A DNA stretch of 64,000 bases from Methanobrevibacter gottschalkii DSM 11977 (GCF_003814835.1 NZ_RKRG01000002.1:372001-436000), one strand, 5' to 3'; positions 9,425-62,909 are shown, numbered from the stretch's first letter. Notes: a model not told the origin generated them from the sequence alone. Made by a program: numbers and translations.

Positions 9425-10263
9425 TTAACATGTTAGAAGTAAAAAATATTAAATATTCTTATAATTCAAATTATCAAGCACTTAAAGGAGTAAGCTTAAA
9501 AGTTGATAAAGGTGAAATGGTAGCTCTTTTAGGTAAAAATGGTGCAGGTAAATCTACTTTATTTCTTCATTTAAATGGAATTTACAGGCCGGATGAAGGA
9601 AAAGTTTTCATTGATGGTGAAGAATTAAAATATGATAAAAAATCTCTGCTTAAGTTTAGACAAAAGGTCGGAATTGTATTTCAAAATCCTGATGATCAGA
9701 TATTTGCACCAACAGTCGAGGAAGATGTTGCATTCGGTCCTCTGAATTTAGGATTGCCAATGGAAGAAGTTCAAGACAGAGTTGAAGAAGCATTAGTTCG
9801 TGTTGGAATGTCAGGTTATGAAAAAACAGCTCCTCATCATTTAAGTGGCGGACAAAAGAAAAGAGTAGCTATTGCAGGTATTCTTGCAATGAAACCTGAG
9901 ATAATGGTTTTGGATGAACCAACTGCAGGTCTTGATCCACAGGGAGTTGTAGATTTATCTAAATTATTGAGAGAACTTAACGATGAAGGAATTACAATTA
10001 TAATTTCAACACATGATGTTGAGTTAGTTCCGAATTATGCTCAAAGAGTATTTGTTTTAGTTGATGGTTTATTGATTGCAGAAGGCACTCCTAAAGAGAT
10101 TTTTGCAAAACCAGAAATTTTGGAAAAAGCAAACTTGAAAGTTCCAATTGTTACAGAATTATTTCAAAAACTTGAAGATGAAGGTTTTGACATGGAAGGG
10201 AATTATCCTCTAACAATTGATGAAGCTAAGGATAAGTTTTTAAAATTATTGCACGAAAACTAA
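9421..10263 (+). CDS. cbiO: Cobalt ECF transporter ATPase CbiO
   Basis: 280 aa ABC ATPase. Walker A GKNGAGKST (about residues 39-47), Q-loop VFQNPDDQIFAPTVEEDVAFGP (typical of ECF ATPases), signature LSGGQKKR (about 141), Walker B ILMVLDEP-type segment (IMVLDEPTAGLDPQG), and the switch His in STHDVE. It energises Co2+ uptake with CbiMNQ. The ATG at 9421 overlaps cbiQ; an in-frame ATG three codons later (9430) is also possible. Last gene of the operon. Confidence 0.95.
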   Translation: MINMLEVKNIKYSYNSNYQALKGVSLKVDKGEMVALLGKNGAGKSTLFLHLNGIYRPDEGKVFIDGEELKYDKKSLLKFRQKVGIVFQNPDDQIFAPTVEEDVAFGPLNLGLPMEEVQDRVEEALVRVGMSGYEKTAPHHLSGGQKKRVAIAGILAMKPEIMVLDEPTAGLDPQGVVDLSKLLRELNDEGITIIISTHDVELVPNYAQRVFVLVDGLLIAEGTPKEIFAKPEILEKANLKVPIVTELFQKLEDEGFDMEGNYPLTIDEAKDKFLKLLHEN

Positions 10264-51621: not shown

Positions 51622-54345
51622 ATGTCAACTCAAAGTGAAGCAGTTTTAGAAAATAATTTAATAAAAAGATTATCTGAAAATGGATATGAATTTGTTAAAA
51701 TTAGAAATGAAAATGATTTATTAGCTAATTTTAGAGTTCAGTTAGATAAACTAAATAAATGTAAATTAACTGATGAAGAATTTAATAAAGTTTTATTATT
51801 TTTAGATGAAGGTTCGATTTTCGATAAAGCAAAAAAATTAAGAGATCATTATTATATTGATAGAAAAGACAATCCATTTTATATTAAATTTTTAAATCAA
51901 AAAGATTGGTGTAAAAATATTTTTCAAGTATCAAATCAAATAACTATGGAAAGTAAACATAAAAATAGATATGATGTAACTTTATTAATTAATGGTTTTC
52001 CATTAGTTCAAATAGAACTTAAGAGAAGAGGTATGCCTTTAAAAGAAGCGTTTGACCAAATCACTAGGTATACATTACATTCATATAAAGGTCTTTTCAA
52101 TTATATTCAAATATTTGTTGTAAGTAATGGAATTAATACAAAATATTTTGCTAATGGATTAAAAAACGACCTTCAATTTGAGTTTACATTTTATTGGAAA
52201 GATGAAAAAAATAATAACATCCTTTCATTAGATGATTTTGCTAATACATTTTTAGAAAAATGTAATCTTGCAAAAATGATTTCAAAATATATGGTTCTAA
52301 ATGAATCTTCAAAAAGATTAATGATTTTAAGAGCTTATCAAAAATATGCTGTTGAAGCTGTAATTCATCAAGCTTTAGATATTAAACAAAATGGTTATGT
52401 TTGGCATACAACTGGTAGTGGAAAAACACTTACTTCATATAAAGTAAGTCAATTGCTTGCAGAAGATGAATCAATATATAAAGTCATTTTCGTTGTTGAT
52501 AGACGTGATTTAGATATTCAAACGAATAAAGAATTCAATAGTTTCTGTGATGGTTGTGTTAATACAACAAAACATACTGGTGCTTTAATCAAAAACTTAA
52601 CAACGGAAGGTAAAGGTAAATTAGTAACTACCACTATTCAAAAATTATCAAAAGCAGTTAAAACAGCGGGTGATAAAGTTAAACTTCAGAAAATTAAAGA
52701 TAAAAAAATTATCTTAATTTTTGATGAATGTCATAGAAGTCAATTTGGTGAAATGCATAATGTAATTACAGAATTTTTCTCAAATTCATTATCATTTGGT
52801 TTTACAGGAACTCCAATTTTTGCTAAAAATTCTGATGGAACAAGAACAACAAAAGATATTTTTGGTAAAAAACTTCACGAATATGTGATTAAAGATGCTA
52901 TTGCAGATAATAATGTTTTAGGTTTTTCTGTTGATTATGTAGGTGGTGCTAAATCACATACTGATATTGATAAAGAAGTTAAAAAAATTAACACTAAGGA
53001 GTATTTGGAATCAGATAACCGTTTAAATCAAATTGTAGATTATATTATTGAAAGTTATGATAGTAAAACTAGAAATAGAGAATTTAATGCAATGTTTACA
53101 GTTTCTCGCGGTGGAGTGATACATAATTATTATGAGTTATTTAAAAAGAAAAAGCATGATTTAAAAATAGTTACAATATTCACATTTAAAGCTAATGAAG
53201 ATTTAAGTGAAAATGAGCACTCACAAGATTTATTGGACAAATATATCTTAGATTATAATAAAATGTTTGAAACTAATTTTACAAGTGATGATTTTAAACA
53301 GTATCATGCAGATGTTTCTAAAAGAATGAAAAATAGGGAAATAGATTTGTTATTAGTTGTTGACATGTTTTTAACAGGATTTGATAGTAAATTATTAAAT
53401 ACTCTGTATGTAGATAAAAATTTACAATATCATGGTTTACTTCAAGCATTTTCTAGAACCAATCGTATTGTTAATAAAAGAAAATCACAGGGAAATATTG
53501 TTTGTTTTACTAATTTGAAAGATAATGTTGATGAAGCTATTGCATTATTCTCTGATCCTAACGCAATTGAAGATATTATTCTACCTCCTTATGAAACATT
53601 TGTTAAATGGTTTAATGAAGATCTTAAAAGATTATTTAAACTTGTTAAAACTGCTACAGAAGCATTGGATCTTCAAAGTGAAAATGATAAGAAAAAATTT
53701 GTATTAATTTTTAGAGATTTAATTAGAAATAAAAACAAATTAGATATTTTCACAGAATTTAATTGGGATGATGTTAAAATTGATGAACAGGAGTTCAATG
53801 ATTTTAAAAGTGCTTATTTAGATATTTATGATGAATTTAAAAAGGATAATGAGGATGGTGAATCTGTTTTAGGAGATATTGATTTTGAACTTGAACTTCT
53901 TAGGAATGATCAAATTAATGTGGATTATATATTGAATTTATTAGCTGATTTAGATAAGAATAGTACTAGTTTCAAGCATGATAAACAACGTATTATTAGC
54001 CTCATGAAAGAACACGAGAATTTACGTAGCAAAATTGATTTAATTGAGAAATTCATAAATGAAAAATTAGGCAATATTGATAGTAAAGTTACAAATATTA
54101 ATGAAGAATTTGATAAGTTTATGAAACATGAAAGAAAACAAGCAATGTGCGAAATTGTTGATGAAGAAAATTTAAATGAAGATGTGGCTCGTCAAATTTT
54201 TGAATATTTTGAATTTTCTGGTAAAATTGATGAAGAGTTAATTAAACAATCATTGGTTGAAAAATTGAAATTTAAAGAGCGTAAAGCTAAGGTTAATACA
54301 ATTAAATTTAAAATATTTGAATTATTTGAAAAATTTGATTATTAA
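51622..54345 (+). CDS. hsdR: Type I restriction enzyme, R (motor/nuclease) subunit
   Basis: 907 aa. N-terminal PD-(D/E)xK nuclease: RYDVTLLINGFPLVQIELKRRG (about residues 116-137, with D, E-x-K). SF2 translocase: Walker A WHTTGSGKTLTSYK (about 262), Walker B ILIFDECHRSQFG (about 369), motif III GFTGTP, and late motifs FSRTNRIVNK. C-terminal helical part for assembly with HsdM/S. It pumps DNA toward the complex and cuts far from the site. Separated from the rest of the operon by 374 bp, so probably separately transcribed. Confidence 0.95.
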   Translation: MSTQSEAVLENNLIKRLSENGYEFVKIRNENDLLANFRVQLDKLNKCKLTDEEFNKVLLFLDEGSIFDKAKKLRDHYYIDRKDNPFYIKFLNQKDWCKNIFQVSNQITMESKHKNRYDVTLLINGFPLVQIELKRRGMPLKEAFDQITRYTLHSYKGLFNYIQIFVVSNGINTKYFANGLKNDLQFEFTFYWKDEKNNNILSLDDFANTFLEKCNLAKMISKYMVLNESSKRLMILRAYQKYAVEAVIHQALDIKQNGYVWHTTGSGKTLTSYKVSQLLAEDESIYKVIFVVDRRDLDIQTNKEFNSFCDGCVNTTKHTGALIKNLTTEGKGKLVTTTIQKLSKAVKTAGDKVKLQKIKDKKIILIFDECHRSQFGEMHNVITEFFSNSLSFGFTGTPIFAKNSDGTRTTKDIFGKKLHEYVIKDAIADNNVLGFSVDYVGGAKSHTDIDKEVKKINTKEYLESDNRLNQIVDYIIESYDSKTRNREFNAMFTVSRGGVIHNYYELFKKKKHDLKIVTIFTFKANEDLSENEHSQDLLDKYILDYNKMFETNFTSDDFKQYHADVSKRMKNREIDLLLVVDMFLTGFDSKLLNTLYVDKNLQYHGLLQAFSRTNRIVNKRKSQGNIVCFTNLKDNVDEAIALFSDPNAIEDIILPPYETFVKWFNEDLKRLFKLVKTATEALDLQSENDKKKFVLIFRDLIRNKNKLDIFTEFNWDDVKIDEQEFNDFKSAYLDIYDEFKKDNEDGESVLGDIDFELELLRNDQINVDYILNLLADLDKNSTSFKHDKQRIISLMKEHENLRSKIDLIEKFINEKLGNIDSKVTNINEEFDKFMKHERKQAMCEIVDEENLNEDVARQIFEYFEFSGKIDEELIKQSLVEKLKFKERKAKVNTIKFKIFELFEKFDY

Positions 54346-54719: not shown

Positions 54720-55274
54720 ATGATAGTAAAAAAATTAGAAGATATTGCAGAAGTATTTTCAGGAGTACAAATATCTAGATTCATTGATTTAAATGAGAAT
54801 AAATTTCCAGTTATTAAAAATAAATTTGTTGAAGATGAAATTTTAGATTATCATTATGAAAATATTTCTAAAAATATAAATAAAAAATATTATTCAAAAA
54901 AAGGAGATATTATAATTTCTCTTTCACAACCTAATACAGTTAGTTTATTACAAAAAGAAGGATTTATTATTCCAATGTATTTTGCAATTATTCGATTAAA
55001 TGAGGGATATGATTCTTCATTTATATATCATTTAATGAATAGTGATTTGTTCCATAATAAATTACATGTTCTTCTTGAAGGTGGTACTTTAAGAGTTATT
55101 AAAGTTGCTGATTTAAAAAAAATGAAAATTAATATTCCAAATTTTGAAAAACAAAATGATTATGGTAAATTTTTAGATTTAATTGATAAAAAATGTAAAT
55201 TGTTAAATTATAAAAAAAGTTGCAATGAAAAAATTAAAGAATATTTAATTCAAACACAATTAAAAGGTGAATAA
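54720..55274 (+). CDS. hsdS: Half-size type I specificity protein (one target-recognition domain)
   Basis: 184 aa, about half of a normal HsdS. One TRD (residues 1-140: KKLEDIAEVFSGVQISRFID ... GTLRVIKVADLKKMKINIPN) followed by a conserved helical dimer segment (DLIDKKCKLLNYKKSCNEKI). It starts behind GGAGG and ends 2 bp before hsdM, sharing its transcript. Its conserved helix is diverged from the YQDFKKYLMQ of the downstream cassettes, so it is not part of the recombining set. Two half-S proteins can act like one HsdS by dimerising, or it may be incorporated as an alternative specificity. Confidence 0.8.
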   Translation: MIVKKLEDIAEVFSGVQISRFIDLNENKFPVIKNKFVEDEILDYHYENISKNINKKYYSKKGDIIISLSQPNTVSLLQKEGFIIPMYFAIIRLNEGYDSSFIYHLMNSDLFHNKLHVLLEGGTLRVIKVADLKKMKINIPNFEKQNDYGKFLDLIDKKCKLLNYKKSCNEKIKEYLIQTQLKGE

Positions 55275-55276
55275 AG

Positions 55277-56821
55277 ATGTCAGATTATCAAAATAATTTA
55301 GAAAGTAAACTTTGGGCAATTGCCGATGAATTAAGAGGAAATATGGATGCAAATGAATTCAAAAATTATATTCTTGGATTTATTTTCTATAGATATTTGT
55401 CTGAAAAATTAGAATTACACATGAATGAAGAATTAAAAGAAGATGAATTATCTTTCACTGAAGCTTGGGATGATGAAGAATATAAAGATGATTTAATGGA
55501 TGAAGGAATTTCTTCTTTAGGCTACTTCTTAGAACCACAATATCTTTTTAGTACAGTTATTGAAAAAGCAAAAGTTAATGATTTTATTTTAGAAGATTTA
55601 ATTAAATCATTAAATTATATTAGTAATTCTTCTATTGGTACTGATAGTCAAGATGATTTTAGTAATCTTTTTGAAGATGTAGATTTGAATTCTTCAAAAC
55701 TTGGAAAATCTGATGATGATAAAAATAAATTAATTTCAAAAATTTTATTAAATCTTAATGATATTGATTTTAAATTAGGAGATGATGAATCAGATATATT
55801 AGGTGATGCATATGAATATTTAATAAGTCAATTTGCATCAAGTGCAGGTAAAAAAGCAGGAGAGTTTTATACTCCTCAAGAAGTTTCAAAAATACTTGCT
55901 AAAATAGTCACACTTGGTAAAAAGAAACTTAGAAATGTTTATGATCCTACTTGTGGTTCAGGTTCGTTACTTTTGAGAGTTGCTAAAGAAGTTGAAGTTG
56001 GTGATTTCTGTGGTCAGGAATTAAATCAAACCACTTATAACTTAGCTAGAATGAATATGATTCTTCATGGTGTTAAATATGTTGATTTTGATATTAAGCA
56101 AGGAGATTCATTAAAATATCCTCAACATATTGATATGAATTTTGATGCAATAGTAGCGAATCCACCATTTTCTGCAAAATGGTCAGGTGACAAATCATTT
56201 TTAGATGATGAAAGATTTTCTGCATATGGTAAACTTGCACCTAAATCAAAGGCCGATTATGCATTTGTACAACACATGATTTATCATTTAGAAGAAAATG
56301 GAACAATGGCGATTGTTTTACCTCATGGAGTATTATTTAGAGGTGCTGCAGAAGGAACAATACGTAAATATTTAATTGATGAGAAAAATTATTTAGATGC
56401 TGTAATAGGTCTTCCAGCTAATATATTTTATGGAACAAGTATACCCACTGTAATTTTAGTATTTAAAAAATGTCGTGAAGAAGATCAAGAGGTATTATTC
56501 ATTGATGCAAGTAATGACTTTGAAAAAGTCAAAAATCAAAATAAACTCAGATCAGAAGATATTGAAAAAATTGTAAATACTTATGCAAATCGTGAAGAAA
56601 TTGATAAATATTCTCATAAAGCAACAATTGATGAAATCCGTGAAAATGATTTCAATTTAAATATTCCTCGTTATGTTGATACTTTTGAAGAAGAAGAACC
56701 AATAGACTTAAATGAAGTAGTATCTGAACTTAAAATGATTAATGAAGAAATGAAAAAAGTAGATGCTGAAATTAAGAAATATTGTGATGAATTGGGCATC
56801 GAAGCACCAATTTTTGATTGA
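55277..56821 (+). CDS. hsdM: Type I restriction-modification N6-adenine methyltransferase subunit
   Basis: 514 aa. N-terminal helical HsdM domain (LESKLWAIADELRGNMDANE), SAM-binding motif I as VYDPTCGSGSLLL (about residue 223), and the catalytic NPPF in DAIVANPPFSAKW (about 294), which mark an N6-adenine methylase. The C-terminal tail ends in a coiled coil. It methylates target sites chosen by HsdS and, with HsdR, forms the restriction complex. GGTGAA ribosome site. Confidence 0.96.
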   Translation: MSDYQNNLESKLWAIADELRGNMDANEFKNYILGFIFYRYLSEKLELHMNEELKEDELSFTEAWDDEEYKDDLMDEGISSLGYFLEPQYLFSTVIEKAKVNDFILEDLIKSLNYISNSSIGTDSQDDFSNLFEDVDLNSSKLGKSDDDKNKLISKILLNLNDIDFKLGDDESDILGDAYEYLISQFASSAGKKAGEFYTPQEVSKILAKIVTLGKKKLRNVYDPTCGSGSLLLRVAKEVEVGDFCGQELNQTTYNLARMNMILHGVKYVDFDIKQGDSLKYPQHIDMNFDAIVANPPFSAKWSGDKSFLDDERFSAYGKLAPKSKADYAFVQHMIYHLEENGTMAIVLPHGVLFRGAAEGTIRKYLIDEKNYLDAVIGLPANIFYGTSIPTVILVFKKCREEDQEVLFIDASNDFEKVKNQNKLRSEDIEKIVNTYANREEIDKYSHKATIDEIRENDFNLNIPRYVDTFEEEEPIDLNEVVSELKMINEEMKKVDAEIKKYCDELGIEAPIFD

Positions 56822-56830
56822 GTTGGTTTT

Positions 56831-57955
56831 ATGAGTGAAGAAAGATTGGTTCCCAAACTACGATTTAGTGGATTTTCTGATGTATGGGAATCTTATAAAA
56901 TTGGTGATATAAGTAAAACTTATTCTGGAGGAACTCCTTCTACATCAAAAAGAGAATATTATGAAGGAGATATTCCATTTATTAAATCTGGCGAGATTTG
57001 TAAGGATAAAACGGAACATTATATTAATGAAATTGCAATAAATAATTCATCTGCTAAAAAAATTAAAAAAGGGGATTTATTGTTAGCTTTATATGGTGCT
57101 ACAAGTGGTGAAGTTGCAATTTCAAAAATTGATGGTGCTATTAATCAAGCTGTCTTAAAAATAGATAATAATATGGATAATTATTTCCAATACAATTATT
57201 TTTTAAAATATAAAGATAAAATTGTTCATAAATACATTCAGGGAGGTCAAGGAAACCTTTCAGCAAACATTATTAAAAAATTGGAATTTAAATTTCCAAA
57301 ATTAGATGAACAAAAGAGAATAAGTCAATTTTTATTATTAATGGACAAAAAAATTGATTTATTAGAAAACAAACTTCAATATTATCAAGATTTCAAGAAA
57401 TATTTAATGCAACGGATATTCACACAAAACTTAAGATTTGATTTTGATAATGTTAAATTAAAAAATATTTCTAAAATTAATAAAGGTAAACAATTAAATA
57501 AAGATGACATGGTTGAAACTGGCATATTTCATGTTTTAAATGGTGGAAAAGAACCATCAGGTTACACAAATGCATGGAATACTCCTGAAAACACAATTAC
57601 AATAAGTGAGGGTGGAAATTCGTGTGGTTATGTGAATTTCAATACAGAAAAATTTTGGAGTGGGGGGCACTGTTATTATTTAGATAATTTAGCTGAAAAA
57701 GTTGATGGATATTATCTTTATAGTTATTTAAAATTTATCGAACCAAAAATAATGAGATTAAGAGTTGGATCAGGATTACCAAACATTCAAAAAGGAGATA
57801 TTGAGAATATTAAAGTAAAAATAGCTCTTCCAACTGAACAACAAAGAATAAGTAATTTATTGTATTCAACAGATGAAAAGATAATTAATATTGCAAATCA
57901 AAAAGATAATTTTGAACTTTTCAAAAAAGGTTTACTCCAACAAATGTTTGTTTAG
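56831..57955 (+). CDS. hsdS: Type I specificity subunit HsdS, expressed cassette 1
   Basis: 374 aa, two TRDs. The start MSEERLVPK precedes the shared junction LRFSGFSDVWESYKIGDI; TRD1 covers about residues 20-165, the central conserved helix DLLENKLQYYQDFKKYLMQR about 175-200, TRD2 about 205-345, and the C-terminal repeat FKKGLLQQMFV. It is the only full-length cassette with a proper start behind hsdM (9-bp gap), so it is the expression locus. The two TRDs each read half of a bipartite DNA target. Downstream cassettes share its junction sequences. Confidence 0.92.
   Translation: MSEERLVPKLRFSGFSDVWESYKIGDISKTYSGGTPSTSKREYYEGDIPFIKSGEICKDKTEHYINEIAINNSSAKKIKKGDLLLALYGATSGEVAISKIDGAINQAVLKIDNNMDNYFQYNYFLKYKDKIVHKYIQGGQGNLSANIIKKLEFKFPKLDEQKRISQFLLLMDKKIDLLENKLQYYQDFKKYLMQRIFTQNLRFDFDNVKLKNISKINKGKQLNKDDMVETGIFHVLNGGKEPSGYTNAWNTPENTITISEGGNSCGYVNFNTEKFWSGGHCYYLDNLAEKVDGYYLYSYLKFIEPKIMRLRVGSGLPNIQKGDIENIKVKIALPTEQQRISNLLYSTDEKIINIANQKDNFELFKKGLLQQMFV
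56858..56867 (+). repeat. 5' cassette junction CTACGATTTA, copy 1 (expressed locus)
   Basis: A 10-bp sequence encoding L-R-F, ten codons into the expressed hsdS. It recurs in the same reading frame at 58067-58076 and 59348-59357, exactly where the silent cassettes begin to align with hsdS. Upstream sequences differ (CCCAAA here, TTTTTAATA in the cassettes), so this marks the upstream crossover boundary. Confidence 0.75.
57380..57449 (+). repeat. Central hsdS repeat, copy 1
   Basis: 70 bp encoding the YYQDFKKYLMQ-x-IFTQNLRFDFD linker between TRD1 and TRD2. Differs from copy 2 (58661-58730) by 4 bases and from copy 3 (59909-59963) by 1 of 55. A perfect stretch, GATATTCACACAAAACTTAA followed by GAT, is present in all three. 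Confidence 0.9.
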
Positions 57956-58076
57956 AAATTTTTTTGTATTGTTTTTTGTTTAATTAATGGTTATTTTCAT
58001 TATATTGTTCAATAAACCTCTTTTAATTTTTATACGGGCTTGATAACATCTTTTGTATTTTTAATACTACGATTTA
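57935..58076 (+). repeat. 3' cassette end plus spacer, copy 1
   Basis: From CTCCAACAAATGTTTGTTTA (end of hsdS, with stop codon) through a spacer to the next CTACGATTTA. The stretch is strongly similar to 59216-59357, with identical blocks such as TTCATTATATTGTTCAATAA and TCTTTTGTATTTTTAATAC. The noncoding spacer is conserved between cassettes, indicating that whole cassettes were duplicated or moved by recombination. Confidence 0.85.
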
Positions 58077-59236
58077 TGGAGTTTACAGATAATTGGCAAA
58101 CTTATAAATTAGGAGATATATTGACATTTTATTCCACAAATTCATTTTCAAGAGAAAAATTGAACTATGAATTTGGAAATGTTAAAAACATACATTATGG
58201 GGATATTCACACAAAATATCCAACTATTGTTTCATTACAGAATAATAAAGATGTTCCTTTCATTAATGAAGATATAGATTTGTCTAAGTTTAATGAAGAC
58301 CAATATTTACAAGATGGTGATTTAATCATTGTTGACGCATCAGAAGATTATGATGATATTGGAAAAGCTATTGAAGTTATGAATGTCAATGATGAAAAAT
58401 TTTTAGCAGGATTGCATACCATTTTAGCTCGTGATGAAAAGAATATAACTGTTAATGGATTTAAAGCAGATCTTTTTTCAACTAATACTCTCAAAACAAA
58501 AATTAAAGTAATTGCAAATGGAATATCTGTATTAGGAATCAGTAAGAAAAATATTTCAAAATTAGAAGTTAAAATCCCTTCTAAAAGAGAACAACAAGAA
58601 ATTGTTAGTTTTATTAATACTATAGATAGAAAAATAGAACTATTAGAAGAAAAACATCAGTATTATCAAGATTTTAAGAAGTATTTGATGCAACAGATAT
58701 TCACACAAAACTTAAGATTTGATTTTGATAAAGAATGGGAAAATATTAGATTGAAAGATTTTTTAAAATCTTCTTCATCAAGTTTATCTTTGAATGATTT
58801 AGAAGAAAATCATGGAGAATATGGTTTATATGGTGCTACAGGAATTGTTAAATTAATCAATTTCTATGAAAAAACAGAACCTTATTTATCCATTGTTAAA
58901 GATGGTGCAGGAGTTGGAAGAATTTTTTTATGCGAACCAAATACTTCCATTGTTGGAACAATGCAATATCTTACTCCTAAAGAAGGAGTGGATTTAGAAT
59001 TTTCATATTATCTTTTAAATACCATTGAATTTAGAAAATATGTTGTTGGAAGTACAATCCCTCACATATATTTTAAAGATTATTCTAAAGAGAAACTATT
59101 GGTTCCTCAAATTGAAGAACAACAAGAAATTGCAAGTATTTTATCAAATATTGATAATAAACTCAATTTGATACAAGACAGAATTAATCATATGGGACAA
59201 TTCAAGAAAGGGCTGCTCCAACAAATGTTTGTTTAA
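58076..59236 (+). CDS. hsdS: HsdS cassette 2 (full length, probably silent)
   Basis: The alignment with hsdS begins at codon CTA 58067 (LRFMEFTDNWQTYKLGDIL); an in-frame ATG lies at 58076 but has no ribosome site, and an upstream TTG at 58040 lies in the duplicated spacer. Full-length otherwise (about 386 aa): TRD1 to about 58650, conserved helix EEKHQYYQDFKKYLMQQIFT, TRD2 with a sequence different from cassette 1 (YGLYGATGIVKLINFYEKTE), and the C-terminal FKKGLLQQMFV. Probably a donor of recognition domains for the expressed locus; weak readthrough translation cannot be excluded. Confidence 0.85.
   Translation: MEFTDNWQTYKLGDILTFYSTNSFSREKLNYEFGNVKNIHYGDIHTKYPTIVSLQNNKDVPFINEDIDLSKFNEDQYLQDGDLIIVDASEDYDDIGKAIEVMNVNDEKFLAGLHTILARDEKNITVNGFKADLFSTNTLKTKIKVIANGISVLGISKKNISKLEVKIPSKREQQEIVSFINTIDRKIELLEEKHQYYQDFKKYLMQQIFTQNLRFDFDKEWENIRLKDFLKSSSSSLSLNDLEENHGEYGLYGATGIVKLINFYEKTEPYLSIVKDGAGVGRIFLCEPNTSIVGTMQYLTPKEGVDLEFSYYLLNTIEFRKYVVGSTIPHIYFKDYSKEKLLVPQIEEQQEIASILSNIDNKLNLIQDRINHMGQFKKGLLQQMFV
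58661..58730 (+). repeat. Central hsdS repeat, copy 2
   Basis: 66 of 70 bases equal to copy 1; the last 35 are identical. In the same orientation and reading frame as copies 1 and 3. Confidence 0.9.
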
Positions 59237-59357
59237 ACTATTTTAGGATTGTTTTTTGTTTAATTAATGCCTATTTTCATTATATTGTTCAATAAACCCC
59301 TTTTAATTTTTATGATGACTTGATAACCTCTTTTGTATTTTTAATACCTACGATTTA
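59216..59357 (+). repeat. 3' cassette end plus spacer, copy 2
   Basis: Duplicate of 57935-58076, ending in the third CTACGATTTA junction (59348-59357). Small differences are scattered in the spacer (for example TTAATGCC against TTAATGGT), so the duplication is not brand new. Confidence 0.85.
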
Positions 59358-59965
59358 ACGAATTTAATGAAAATTGGAATCAATATTTTTTGAAAGATGT
59401 AATCCAATCATTCATTAATGGTCAAACTCCATCAAGGAATAATGATTCATATTGGAATGGAGATATTCCATGGGTTTCAAGTGGGGAATTGAATTATAAT
59501 TTCATTAATTCAACTATTGAACAAATAACAAAAGAAGGTAAAGATAATGCCAATTTAAAATTATTATCTCCAGGAACATTTTTAATGGCAATAACTGGAT
59601 TAGAAGCTTCAGGAACAAGAGGTAGCTGTGCAATTTTAGGTATTGAATCTACAACAAACCAATCTTGTATGGCATTAATTCCAAAAAAAGATAAATTATG
59701 TACTCAATTTTTATATTGTTGGTATTTAAAAGTTGGAGAACATTATGGTATCAAATATACTCAAGGAACAAAACAACAAAGTTATAATAAAGAATTATTG
59801 GAAAAATTACCAATTACAATTCCTAATCTAAATGAACAGGATAAAATAACCAAATTTTTATCTTCAGTAAATCATAAAATTGACTTGTTAGAAGAAAAAC
59901 ATGAAATGTATCAAGATTTCAAGAAATATTTAATGCAACAGATATTCACACAAAACTTAAGATAA
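59348..59965 (+). pseudogene. hsdS: Silent hsdS cassette 3 (TRD1 half without start codon)
   Basis: The frame opens at the CTACGATTTA junction and is preceded by a stop codon (TAA at 59342), so it has no start: LRFNEFNENWNQYFLKDVIQ, then a TRD (TPSRNNDSYWNGDIPWVSSG ... GTKQQSYNKELLEKLPITIP) and the conserved helix EEKHEMYQDFKKYLMQQIFT, then ends at QNLR-stop exactly inside the central repeat. It thus stores only an N-terminal recognition domain. Insertion into the expressed locus between junction and central repeat would give an intact HsdS with a new half-specificity. Confidence 0.8.
59909..59963 (+). repeat. Central hsdS repeat, copy 3 (end of the array)
   Basis: 55 bp matching copy 1 with a single difference, ending at CTTAAGAT; similarity stops abruptly here, directly before AAATATG. 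This is the 3' border of the cassette array. Confidence 0.88.
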
Positions 59966-60184: not shown

Positions 60185-61180
60185 ATGAAAACTAGAATAA
60201 TTAACAAAATTAAATCAAAAATGAAATTATATTTGGATGAAAATCAATTAGTCATATTGGATGAAACTTTAAGAAATATTCTTAAAGATTATGATTTGGT
60301 TGAAACTGAAAGTGAATTTACTATAAAAGAATCTAAGGAAAATTCTATTTTATTAATGAATTTTTTAGCATCTAAACATGTTGAAGGTTGTTCTGAAAGG
60401 ACCATTACTTATTATCACACAACTATTGCAAAAATGCTAGAGTCTATTAGTAAAAAAATTGAATTCATTTCAACTGATGATTTAAGGAAATACTTGGCTG
60501 ATTATAGAAAAGTAAATGGAGCATCTAAAACAACAGTGGATAATATTAGAAGAGTCCTTTCAAGTTTTTTTAGTTGGCTTGAAGATGAAGATTATATTTT
60601 AAAAAATCCTGTTCGTCGAATTCACAAAATCAAAACTAAAAAAGTTGTTAAAGAGGTTTTGAGTGATGAGCATTTTGAAGTTTTAAGGGATAATTGTGAT
60701 AATATTAGGGATCTTGCAATGATTGAACTTTTAGCTTCAACTGGTATACGTGTAGGTGAACTGGTTAATCTTAATATTGATGATGTTTTATTTAATGAAC
60801 GAGAATGTGTTGTATTAGGTAAGGGTGATTCTGAAAGGATTGTTTACTTTGATGCAAAAACAAAAATTCACTTACTAAAATATTTGGAGTCAAGAAAAGA
60901 TAATAATCCTGCTCTTTTTGTGTCATTTAAAAAACCATTTAAACGGCTGGGAATTAACGGTGTTGAGCGGAGAATAAGGGAACTTGGTAATGGGGCTAAT
61001 ATTAAAAAAGTACATCCCCATAAATTTAGAAGAACTATGGCAACAAATGCAATAGATAAAGGAATGCCGATTGAACAAGTTCAAAAACTTCTAGGTCATG
61101 TGCAAATTGATACAACAATGCAGTATGCAATGGTTAATCAGAACAATGTTAAAATAGCCCATAGGAAATTTATTGGATAA
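60185..61180 (+). CDS. Tyrosine recombinase (XerC/D-type integrase)
   Basis: 331 aa. An extended N-terminus (1-50), SAM-like core-binding domain (about 55-145, MNFLASKHVEGCSERTITYY), and catalytic domain with the residues R (STGIRVGELVNLNIDDV, about 194), K, H-x-x-R (HPHKFRRTMA, about 280), H (LLGHVQIDTTMQYA, about 303) and the nucleophile Tyr in MQYAMV. No phage genes are nearby. It lies directly beyond the hsdS cassettes and is the obvious candidate to shuffle them. A general Xer role cannot be ruled out, but the position next to the array favours specialisation. Confidence 0.88.
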   Translation: MKTRIINKIKSKMKLYLDENQLVILDETLRNILKDYDLVETESEFTIKESKENSILLMNFLASKHVEGCSERTITYYHTTIAKMLESISKKIEFISTDDLRKYLADYRKVNGASKTTVDNIRRVLSSFFSWLEDEDYILKNPVRRIHKIKTKKVVKEVLSDEHFEVLRDNCDNIRDLAMIELLASTGIRVGELVNLNIDDVLFNERECVVLGKGDSERIVYFDAKTKIHLLKYLESRKDNNPALFVSFKKPFKRLGINGVERRIRELGNGANIKKVHPHKFRRTMATNAIDKGMPIEQVQKLLGHVQIDTTMQYAMVNQNNVKIAHRKFIG

Positions 61181-61238: not shown

Positions 61239-62909
61239 ATGGATGCTGGAAAATTACAATTATTATATTTTTTAAGTCAAAATCAACAGTTATCAATTCC
61301 AATTTATCAAAGAAAATATAGTTGGAGTGAAAAAGAATGTAGTCAACTTTTAGAGGATATTTTGCGAGTTGGTGAAAGTGATGAACAAAACCATTTTATC
61401 GGATCTATTGTTTATATGAATCAAAAAGGCCACATTGCAAGTCCTATTAATAGTTTGATGATTATTGATGGTCAGCAAAGAGCAACTACAATTACATTAT
61501 TAATTTCAGCTATTGTTGAATTTTTATTTAAAAATCCAAATGATAATGTAATGTCTCCTGAAAATTTTATTAGTTATTACCTTTTAAATGATAGAGAAAA
61601 AGGAGAAACTAGATATAAACTTATTTTGACTCAAGATGATAAAAGAACTTTAATTAAAATAATTGATTATCTTGAAACTAGTGATGAAATTCCATTTGAT
61701 AGCAATGATTCTATTAGAATTAAAGAGAACTTTGAATTTTTCAAAAAGAAGATTAATACGGACAACATAGAAATTCTTTTCAATGGGTTAAATAAATTAT
61801 TAATTATTTTTGTTGCATTGGAACATAATATTGATAATCCTCAATTGATTTTTGAAAGTTTAAACTCTACTGGTTTAGAATTATCTCAGGTGGATTTAAT
61901 TAGAAATTATATTCTAATGGGTTTGGTTCCGGAAGAACAAGAAAAATTATATAATGATTTTTGGCATGAAATAGAAACTTTATTTGAGAAAAATGAGGGG
62001 AATTTTGATAAATTCATTAGAGATTATCTGACAGTTAAAACGGATAAAGTTCCTGTATTTAGAAATATTTATTCTGATTTTAAAAAATATTCAGCACAAA
62101 TTGATGTTAAAGAATTAGTTAAAGATATCCACAAATATGCTTTCTATTTCAATTCAATTGCTTTTGGTGCTGAGGAGAATCCGAAACTGAAAGAATCCCT
62201 TGACAGTTTAAATAGTTTGGGTTATGATGTAACTGATCCATTTATGCTTCATTTATATAGGGATTACAAAGAAAATAAATTGTCCACTGATGATTTCTGT
62301 GAAATTATTAAATATACTGAAAGTTATTTGCTTAGAAGATTGATTTGTTCTATTCCAACACCATCTTTAAATAAAACATTTGCTGGAATGTATGTTCAAA
62401 TTGACAATACAAGTCATTTAAGTTCATATAAAGCGATTTTACGTTCAAAAGAAAATTATCAAAGAATGCCGAGCAATAGGGAATTCGTAGCCAATTTTAG
62501 ACAAAGGGATATTTACAATTTAAGATCAAAAAATAGGGATTATATATTCGATAAATTTGAAAATTGGGGCTCAAAAGAAAAAACTAATATTCAAAATTAC
62601 ACTATTGAACATATCATGCCTCAAAATCCAAATCTTTCACAAGATTGGAAGCTAGAACTTGGAGAACAATGGGCAGATATTCAAAAGACTTATTTGCATA
62701 CAATTGGGAACTTAACATTAACAGGGTATAATTCGGAGTTAAGTGATAGGTCATTCAATGAAAAAAGAGATATGGCTGGAGGTTTTAAAGATAGTGCTAT
62801 TAGATTAAATATTTATTTGCAGGATTTAAATAATTGGAATGAAAATGAAATTAAATTAAGGACAAACAGATTTGTAGAAAAAGCTAAAACAATTTGGCCA
62901 TATCCGTAA
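61239..62909 (+). CDS. DUF262/DUF1524 (GmrSD-like) modification-dependent restriction protein
   Basis: 556 aa. N-terminal DUF262 (ParB-like NTPase) with IPIYQRKYSWSEKECSQLLE and the DGQQR nucleotide motif in MIIDGQQRATTITLL (about residue 80); C-terminal DUF1524 HNH-type nuclease with TIEHIMPQNPNLS (about 458) and HTIGNLTLTGYNSELSD. Fused GmrS-GmrD proteins cut modified phage DNA such as glucosylated hydroxymethylcytosine DNA (type IV restriction). It lies 58 bp after the recombinase gene with its own GGAGAC site, extending the defence island. Confidence 0.9.
   Translation: MDAGKLQLLYFLSQNQQLSIPIYQRKYSWSEKECSQLLEDILRVGESDEQNHFIGSIVYMNQKGHIASPINSLMIIDGQQRATTITLLISAIVEFLFKNPNDNVMSPENFISYYLLNDREKGETRYKLILTQDDKRTLIKIIDYLETSDEIPFDSNDSIRIKENFEFFKKKINTDNIEILFNGLNKLLIIFVALEHNIDNPQLIFESLNSTGLELSQVDLIRNYILMGLVPEEQEKLYNDFWHEIETLFEKNEGNFDKFIRDYLTVKTDKVPVFRNIYSDFKKYSAQIDVKELVKDIHKYAFYFNSIAFGAEENPKLKESLDSLNSLGYDVTDPFMLHLYRDYKENKLSTDDFCEIIKYTESYLLRRLICSIPTPSLNKTFAGMYVQIDNTSHLSSYKAILRSKENYQRMPSNREFVANFRQRDIYNLRSKNRDYIFDKFENWGSKEKTNIQNYTIEHIMPQNPNLSQDWKLELGEQWADIQKTYLHTIGNLTLTGYNSELSDRSFNEKRDMAGGFKDSAIRLNIYLQDLNNWNENEIKLRTNRFVEKAKTIWPYP

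Follow-up and report, generated by a model that had tools for sequence, protein, structure and literature searches.

Among the described systems of hsdS shuffling, the closest to the locus considered here is tvr (SpnIV) of S. pneumoniae, in which a tyrosine recombinase acts on direct repeats of two kinds and the rearrangement proceeds by excision and reintegration via circles (Kwun et al. 2018; PMC6265443). Residual excision at the long repeats of tvr, independent of TvrR, was also described (PMC6265443). The recombinase PsrA requires the 15-bp IR1 repeat, plus IR1-like sequences located within longer repeats (PMC7096588). The switching of methylation specificity has been demonstrated in bacteria, while for archaea the presence of hsdS-recombinase systems has been mentioned on the basis of sequence alone (PMC4948785). 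Among the 209 data sets of one survey, the 6 archaea showed no inversions (PMC5903667). A survey of inverted repeats in REBASE mentioned neither archaea nor direct repeats (PMC7394358); an array built of direct repeats would escape searches for inverted repeats. No paper on hsdS shuffling in Methanobrevibacter was found in the literature searched.

The array described here is located in a stretch of 64,000 nucleotides from the archaeon Methanobrevibacter gottschalkii DSM 11977 (NZ_RKRG01000002.1:372001-436000), which is called the window below, and positions are counted from its first nucleotide. The genes of the locus, all on the + strand, are arranged in the order hsdR, a single-TRD hsdS-like gene, hsdM, three hsdS cassettes, a tyrosine recombinase gene, and a GmrSD-type gene. 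The hsdR gene (51622-54345) encodes a type I restriction subunit of 907 aa with the Pfam domains EcoR124_C, SWI2_SNF2, and HSDR_N, and hsdM (55277-56821) encodes a type I methyltransferase subunit of 514 aa with the domains N6_Mtase (1e-116) and HsdM_N. Hence, hsdR, hsdM, and a two-TRD hsdS, as identified with Pfam, are present in a single locus, as is characteristic of a type I restriction-modification system. The single-TRD hsdS-like gene (54720-55274, 184 aa, Methylase_S 3.4e-11) is located 5′ of hsdM, outside the array, and contains neither of the two junction sites, x and y, described below. It is constant among the relatives, with an ortholog 77% identical at the equivalent place in genome G004, and it appears to encode an invariant half-S subunit. 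Such a gene is also present in loci L056, L076, and L082, and in L058 it is located upstream of hsdR. The GmrSD-family gene (61239-62909) lies directly 3′ of the recombinase gene, and GmrSD matches were also observed close to several of the bacterial loci that combine a recombinase with hsdS (e.g., L111, L117, L128, L142, and L149). A search of Rfam returned no match, and a scan for terminators and promoters gave nothing above shuffled sequences, with sigma-70 models that do not fit archaea.

The three cassettes consist of one complete hsdS, one full-length hsdS sequence, and one half cassette, all on the + strand, as had been proposed in a preliminary description made from the sequence of the window. 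Cassette 1 (56831-57955), with two Methylase_S stretches corresponding to TRDs N1 and C1, has its ATG 9 bp after the hsdM stop and is the expressed copy. Cassette 2 (58067-59236), with TRDs N2 and C2, starts at its 5′ junction and has no proper start. Cassette 3 (59348-59965) contains TRD N3 alone (Methylase_S 5.8e-28), and it indeed lacks a start and ends in the central repeat: an in-frame stop is present two codons 5′ of its junction x3, and the frame terminates immediately past y3 (..TTA AGA TAA). The preliminary description considered both cassettes 2 and 3 silent; this is the case for cassette 3, while cassette 2 is likely but not certainly silent, because an in-frame TTG (58040) and ATG (58076) exist, though neither candidate start is preceded by a visible Shine-Dalgarno sequence. 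The claim that the TRDs differ completely between cassettes did not hold, since N1 and N3 share 31% identity (42/135, z 18.7). The tyrosine recombinase gene and the single-TRD hsdS-like gene had been overlooked in that description.

The cassettes are joined by two kinds of repeats. The 5′ junction x (CTACGATTTA) is located at 56858-56867 (x1), 58067-58076 (x2), and 59348-59357 (x3), and the exact match of x1 to x2 and x3 extends over 10 bp only. In the 1.88-Mb genome the x sequence occurs in four copies, three in the array and the fourth in an unrelated gene. The central junction y (GATATTCACACAAAACTTAAGAT in cassette 1) is located at 57415-57437 (y1), 58696-58718 (y2), and 59941-59963 (y3); within it, TTCACACAAAACTTAAGAT is exactly repeated at 57419, 58700, and 59945, ending at 57437, 58718, and 59963, and three such matches were obtained in 0 of 100 shuffles. 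The y junction belongs to a longer central repeat of 162 nt, which is 72-78% identical among the copies and has no further copy in the genome, while the similarity of y3 to y1 and y2 stops precisely at ..CTTAAGAT. No inverted x or y was found in the whole 1.88-Mb genome. The expected conservation of the sequence between cassettes was also observed, as spacer 1 (57956-58066) and spacer 2 (59237-59347) are 89% identical over 112 nt. The x-to-y distances are 573, 645, and 609, each a multiple of 3, and both junctions keep the frame in all cassettes, which supports the earlier proposal that the junctions preserve the frame and that six HsdS combinations could be built. The open frames of the recombinase and of all six hsdS domains are intact, with zero internal stops. 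The locus contains several hsdS copies with differing TRDs joined by common repeats, together with a recombinase of the family described below, two features of the class of hsdS-shuffling type I systems that have a dedicated tyrosine recombinase.

The comparison with related loci provides new evidence that x and y could serve as recombination sites. The x core reads CTACGA-TTT in the window, L052 (G004), L054, L057, L072, and L073; CTCCGA-TTT in L055, L058, L076, and L078; and TTGCGA-TTT in L056 and L082. The hexamer is uniform inside each locus, with the exception of one start-bearing site in L076. The within-locus identity of the x core was 0.90, compared with 0.32 after shuffling site labels among loci, and the observed value was reached in 0 of 200,000 shuffles. 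All core variants encode Leu-Arg-Phe, and the Arg codon is CGA at 28 of the 29 x sites, even though CGA makes up 2.1% of Arg codons in the long ORFs of the window. At each y junction the same dipeptide, Leu-Arg, is encoded by TTA AGA, and the x core CTACGA and the y core TTAAGA have in common only GATTT-type flanks. The occurrence of the rare CGA at x and of AGA at every y, despite the same Leu-Arg, is not explained by selection at the protein level. Similar TRDs carry the core of the locus in which they are located: N1 is 84% identical in L055, where the core is CTCCGA rather than the CTACGA of the window, and N2 is 83% identical in L078 (CTCCGA) and 80% identical in L054 (CTACGA). The sequence to the left of x lacks conservation, so that a full two-armed recombinase site could not be delimited; symmetric AAA-N6-TTT arms flanking x and y were considered and dropped, as the left arm is not kept at the silent x sites. 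An automatic search for repeat cores in the bacterial loci returned mixed strings with no common core. A second type I system of Methanobrevibacter (L064-L067, L084-L090, and L153-L156), with HsdM about 32-36% and recombinase 68-70% identical, has a different 5′ junction, AATTTGAGTTTAGA, and inverted cassettes.

The TRDs were also compared with those of related loci, always between species, with one genome per species. The homology of TRDs across species both begins and ends at x, at y or the central helix, or at the hsdS stop. The alignment limits were 56856-57439 for N1 with L055, 58063-58715 and 58062-58721 for N2 with L054 and L078, respectively, 57285-57954 for C1 with L076, and 58631-59235 for C2 with L055. 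The position of these limits at the joints indicates that TRDs travel as x-to-y and y-to-stop modules in a pool shared across the genus. There are also matches between positions: for N1 of the window the match is a TRD at the C position of L078 (8489-9031, 85%), and for C2 it is a TRD at the N position of L073 (89-625, 70%). In L054 a tandem duplication of ∼30 bp (TTGATGCAACAGATTTTCGCACAGAAATTAA; 10080-10150), located within an inverted cassette and ending at y, could represent a scar left by recombination, one by which the reading frame is split. The ends of several contigs at x or y (G004, C12 and C8; G006:C14; G002:C29) were considered as a sign of mixed populations, and this was rejected, as repeats alone explain such breaks.

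The tyrosine recombinase gene (60185-61180, 331 aa; Phage_integrase 2.9e-34 and Phage_int_SAM_4) is complete and located 220 bp 3′ of the array, outside its outermost repeats. The protein is XerA/XerD-like in comparison with PDB structures. Its close relatives in the same genus (68-94% identity) adjoin hsdS or hsdM in G006, G010, G024, G001, G015, G016, and others. A scan of 85,000 species genomes yielded 80 recombinases at about 57-92% identity, which come from Methanobrevibacter, streptococci, Listeria, Clostridia, Bacteroidetes, and others, and most of them are within type I loci having several hsdS domains. Among the recombinase loci whose 5-kb surroundings include at least three hsdS domains, 53 contain both orientations and 11, including the window, a single one. 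The recombinase is presumed to be the agent of hsdS shuffling, and from its linkage to the array and the conservation of the sites we infer that it pairs with x and y. The archaeal recombinase is 60-66% identical over the full length to bacterial ones (L092, L116, L124, L133, and others), which suggests transfer between domains. A scan of viral contigs returned 20 recombinase loci, the best at 60-61% identity, with no close relatives. Some paralogs have no hsdS nearby; they include a sub-clade (L061, L062, L063, L079, L080, and L083) ∼72-80% identical to the window recombinase, which may switch something else. Large adhesin-like or surface-repeat genes are located near the paralogs in L061 and L063, and a search for inverted repeats beside the hsdS-free paralogs gave only weak pairs. 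In L087, L153, and L154 (G052:C30, G083:C1, and G071:C11) the recombinase is inside open frames of 617-764 codons, perhaps a read-through from an upstream hsdS domain.

The direct-only layout distinguishes the window from most of its sister loci, which carry an inverted cassette. In L054, L055, L076, and L078 the tail of a direct half cassette abuts the tail of an inverted cassette, and the recombinase follows where the contig extends that far. In the recombinase tree, a single clade (SH-aLRT 99) groups the window with G004, L072, and L073, and no member of it has an inverted cassette where the locus is resolved: the window and L072 are direct-only, L072 having the same direct layout with other TRDs, while G004 is broken at x and y. 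In L073, hsdM is followed by x, one TRD with a broken frame, y, and the recombinase; this is the arrangement expected after excision between x1 and x3, though assembly collapse or decay may also account for it. Since inversion between opposite sites would leave the outermost one inverted, it follows that a direct-only array cannot be a phase of an inverting array and that the inverted cassette must be missing. As all cassettes are direct, inversion is impossible, which implies excision and reintegration.

Hence, we consider it quite probable that the hsdS array is a store of TRDs that is mobilized by recombinase-driven excision and reintegration at x and y. The single hsdS that follows hsdM would be expressed, while one full and one half cassette would form the store. 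The recombinase would pair x with x alone, at the core CTACGA, and y with y alone, at the core TTAAGA. Because both cores encode Leu-Arg in frame, each product would remain an open HsdS, while the differing Leu-Arg codons would hold the N- and C-terminal TRDs at their own positions. Direct sites would lead to the excision of circles of 1.2-2.5 kb (1209-2526 bp) and to their reintegration at another like site. The predicted circle sizes are 1209 bp for x1-x2, 1281 bp for both y1-y2 and x2-x3, 1245 bp for y2-y3, 2490 bp for x1-x3, and 2526 bp for y1-y3. In simulations in which circles were lost only three complete HsdS were obtained (N1C1, N1C2, and N2C2), while reintegration at any like site gave 12 gene orders and all six N by C combinations, which would correspond to six methylation and restriction specificities. 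The third N module, bounded by y3, fits the need of the reintegrating scheme. As a counterpoint, the loss of circles formed between direct repeats would be a ratchet toward collapse, of which L073 may be a case. The position of the recombinase gene outside the repeats, the variable left side of x, and the homogenization of the spacers also speak against this reading. From the arrangement of the locus we infer the switching itself, the use of x and y by the recombinase in living cells, the formation of circles, and reversibility, so that the archaeon can probably re-mix the recognition of its type I enzyme. A bolder proposal, which we put forward tentatively and with somewhat less than even confidence, is that one archaeal recombinase performs two orthogonal shuffles, with synonymous Leu-Arg codons as non-cross-reacting addresses, so that N- and C-terminal TRDs are exchanged independently of each other, with heritable switching of the methylome. 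If this were true, phase-variable methylation would have been shown for the first time in an archaeon, and synonymous codons would be serving as addresses for recombination. If the array is active, mixed methylomes and mixed barriers to viruses and plasmids would be expected in clonal populations of gut methanogens, and the locus-specific Leu-Arg cores would provide a directly testable rule for recombinase recognition.

The array could instead be a donor store for RadA-dependent homologous recombination or gene conversion into the expressed hsdS, with silent TRDs copied via the central repeat (∼170 bp) and conserved flanks and with no need for the recombinase. The extent of the central repeat and the spacer and their 72-78% and 89% identities are consistent with such a route, as is the partial persistence of long-repeat excision at tvr without TvrR and without RecA (PMC6265443). 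The spacers are also homogenized within loci (89% in the window and 88% in L072), a sign that the array may additionally be shaped by duplication or homologous recombination. However, an exact match of 10 bp, as between x1 and x2 or x3, is too short for ordinary homologous exchange; moreover, the x core is preserved at the DNA level in rare codons, and a dedicated recombinase is linked to the locus in the relatives. We therefore regard the donor store as unlikely. Of the two routes that the preliminary description took to be implied, excision stands, as all copies are direct. With a dedicated recombinase next door, there is no need to assume gene conversion, or at least not for the 10-bp x.

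Slightly less probable still, in our judgment, is that the locus is the frozen remnant of an ancestral inverting shufflon, from which the clade of the window lost the inverted cassette and keeps a fixed hsdS with decaying spares, so that the differences between species would come from rare recombination or transfer. The inverted cassettes of L054, L055, L076, and L078 and their absence from the window would agree with such a history, and so would the lack of proper starts in cassettes 2 and 3 and the collapsed, frame-broken L073. On the other hand, neither the six hsdS domains nor the recombinase has acquired an internal stop, the copies of x and those of y in the locus have remained identical, and L072, though its TRDs differ, retains the direct layout.

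The array resembles tvr in the single orientation of its hsdS TRD segments, in two kinds of direct repeats that keep N and C TRDs in place, in the tyrosine recombinase gene within the locus, and in the spare half cassette ('2+1' type layouts). It differs in its archaeal host and in the position of hsdR, which is upstream of hsdM in the window and behind the array in tvr. The recombinase gene is located between TRD segments in tvr, while that of the window, at 60185, is outside y3 (59963), so that a circle would not carry the recombinase, unlike in tvr. The window also lacks a tvrAT phd-doc-like pair, with none between 59965 and 60185 and GmrSD as the next gene, and its x (CTACGA) and y (TTAAGA) cores are distinct, while MPR and TER of tvr share an ∼11-bp core. 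Because the internal recombinase, tvrAT, and the shared core are missing, the locus would work like tvr, yet it is not a tvr locus. With the ivr/cod locus (SpnIII, PsrA/CreX) and the inverting locus of S. suis it shares silent hsdS stores, a locus tyrosine recombinase, and a very short 5′ repeat (15-bp IR1) combined with longer internal repeats, and its recombinase is 62-63% identical to those encoded in hsdS loci of S. suis and S. agalactiae; the ivr/cod and S. suis systems, however, invert between inverted repeats, of which the window has none. The requirement of PsrA for IR1 and for IR1-like sequences in longer repeats is paralleled in the window by x, which is short, and by the x-like step that the longer y contains. 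The inverting Methanobrevibacter loci (L054, L055, L056, L076, and L078) have orthologous hsdR and hsdM, an orthologous recombinase where it is on the contig, the same x/y design, and partly the same TRDs, while their inverted cassette, next to the recombinase and mostly tail to tail with the direct half, is absent in the clade of the window. In Helicobacter pylori, TRDs undergo domain movement (DoMo), which the matches of N1 and C2 to TRDs at the other position resemble; in the window, however, changes of position are seen only between species and would be kept rare by the distinct x and y cores. The expectation of the preliminary description that the direct copies point to a different scheme of diversification was not borne out, as excision and reintegration between direct repeats are established at tvr/SpnIV (PMC6265443). 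Hence, the mode is not new, and what the array offers is the archaeal variant of a kind of switch already known in bacteria, the pneumococcus among them.
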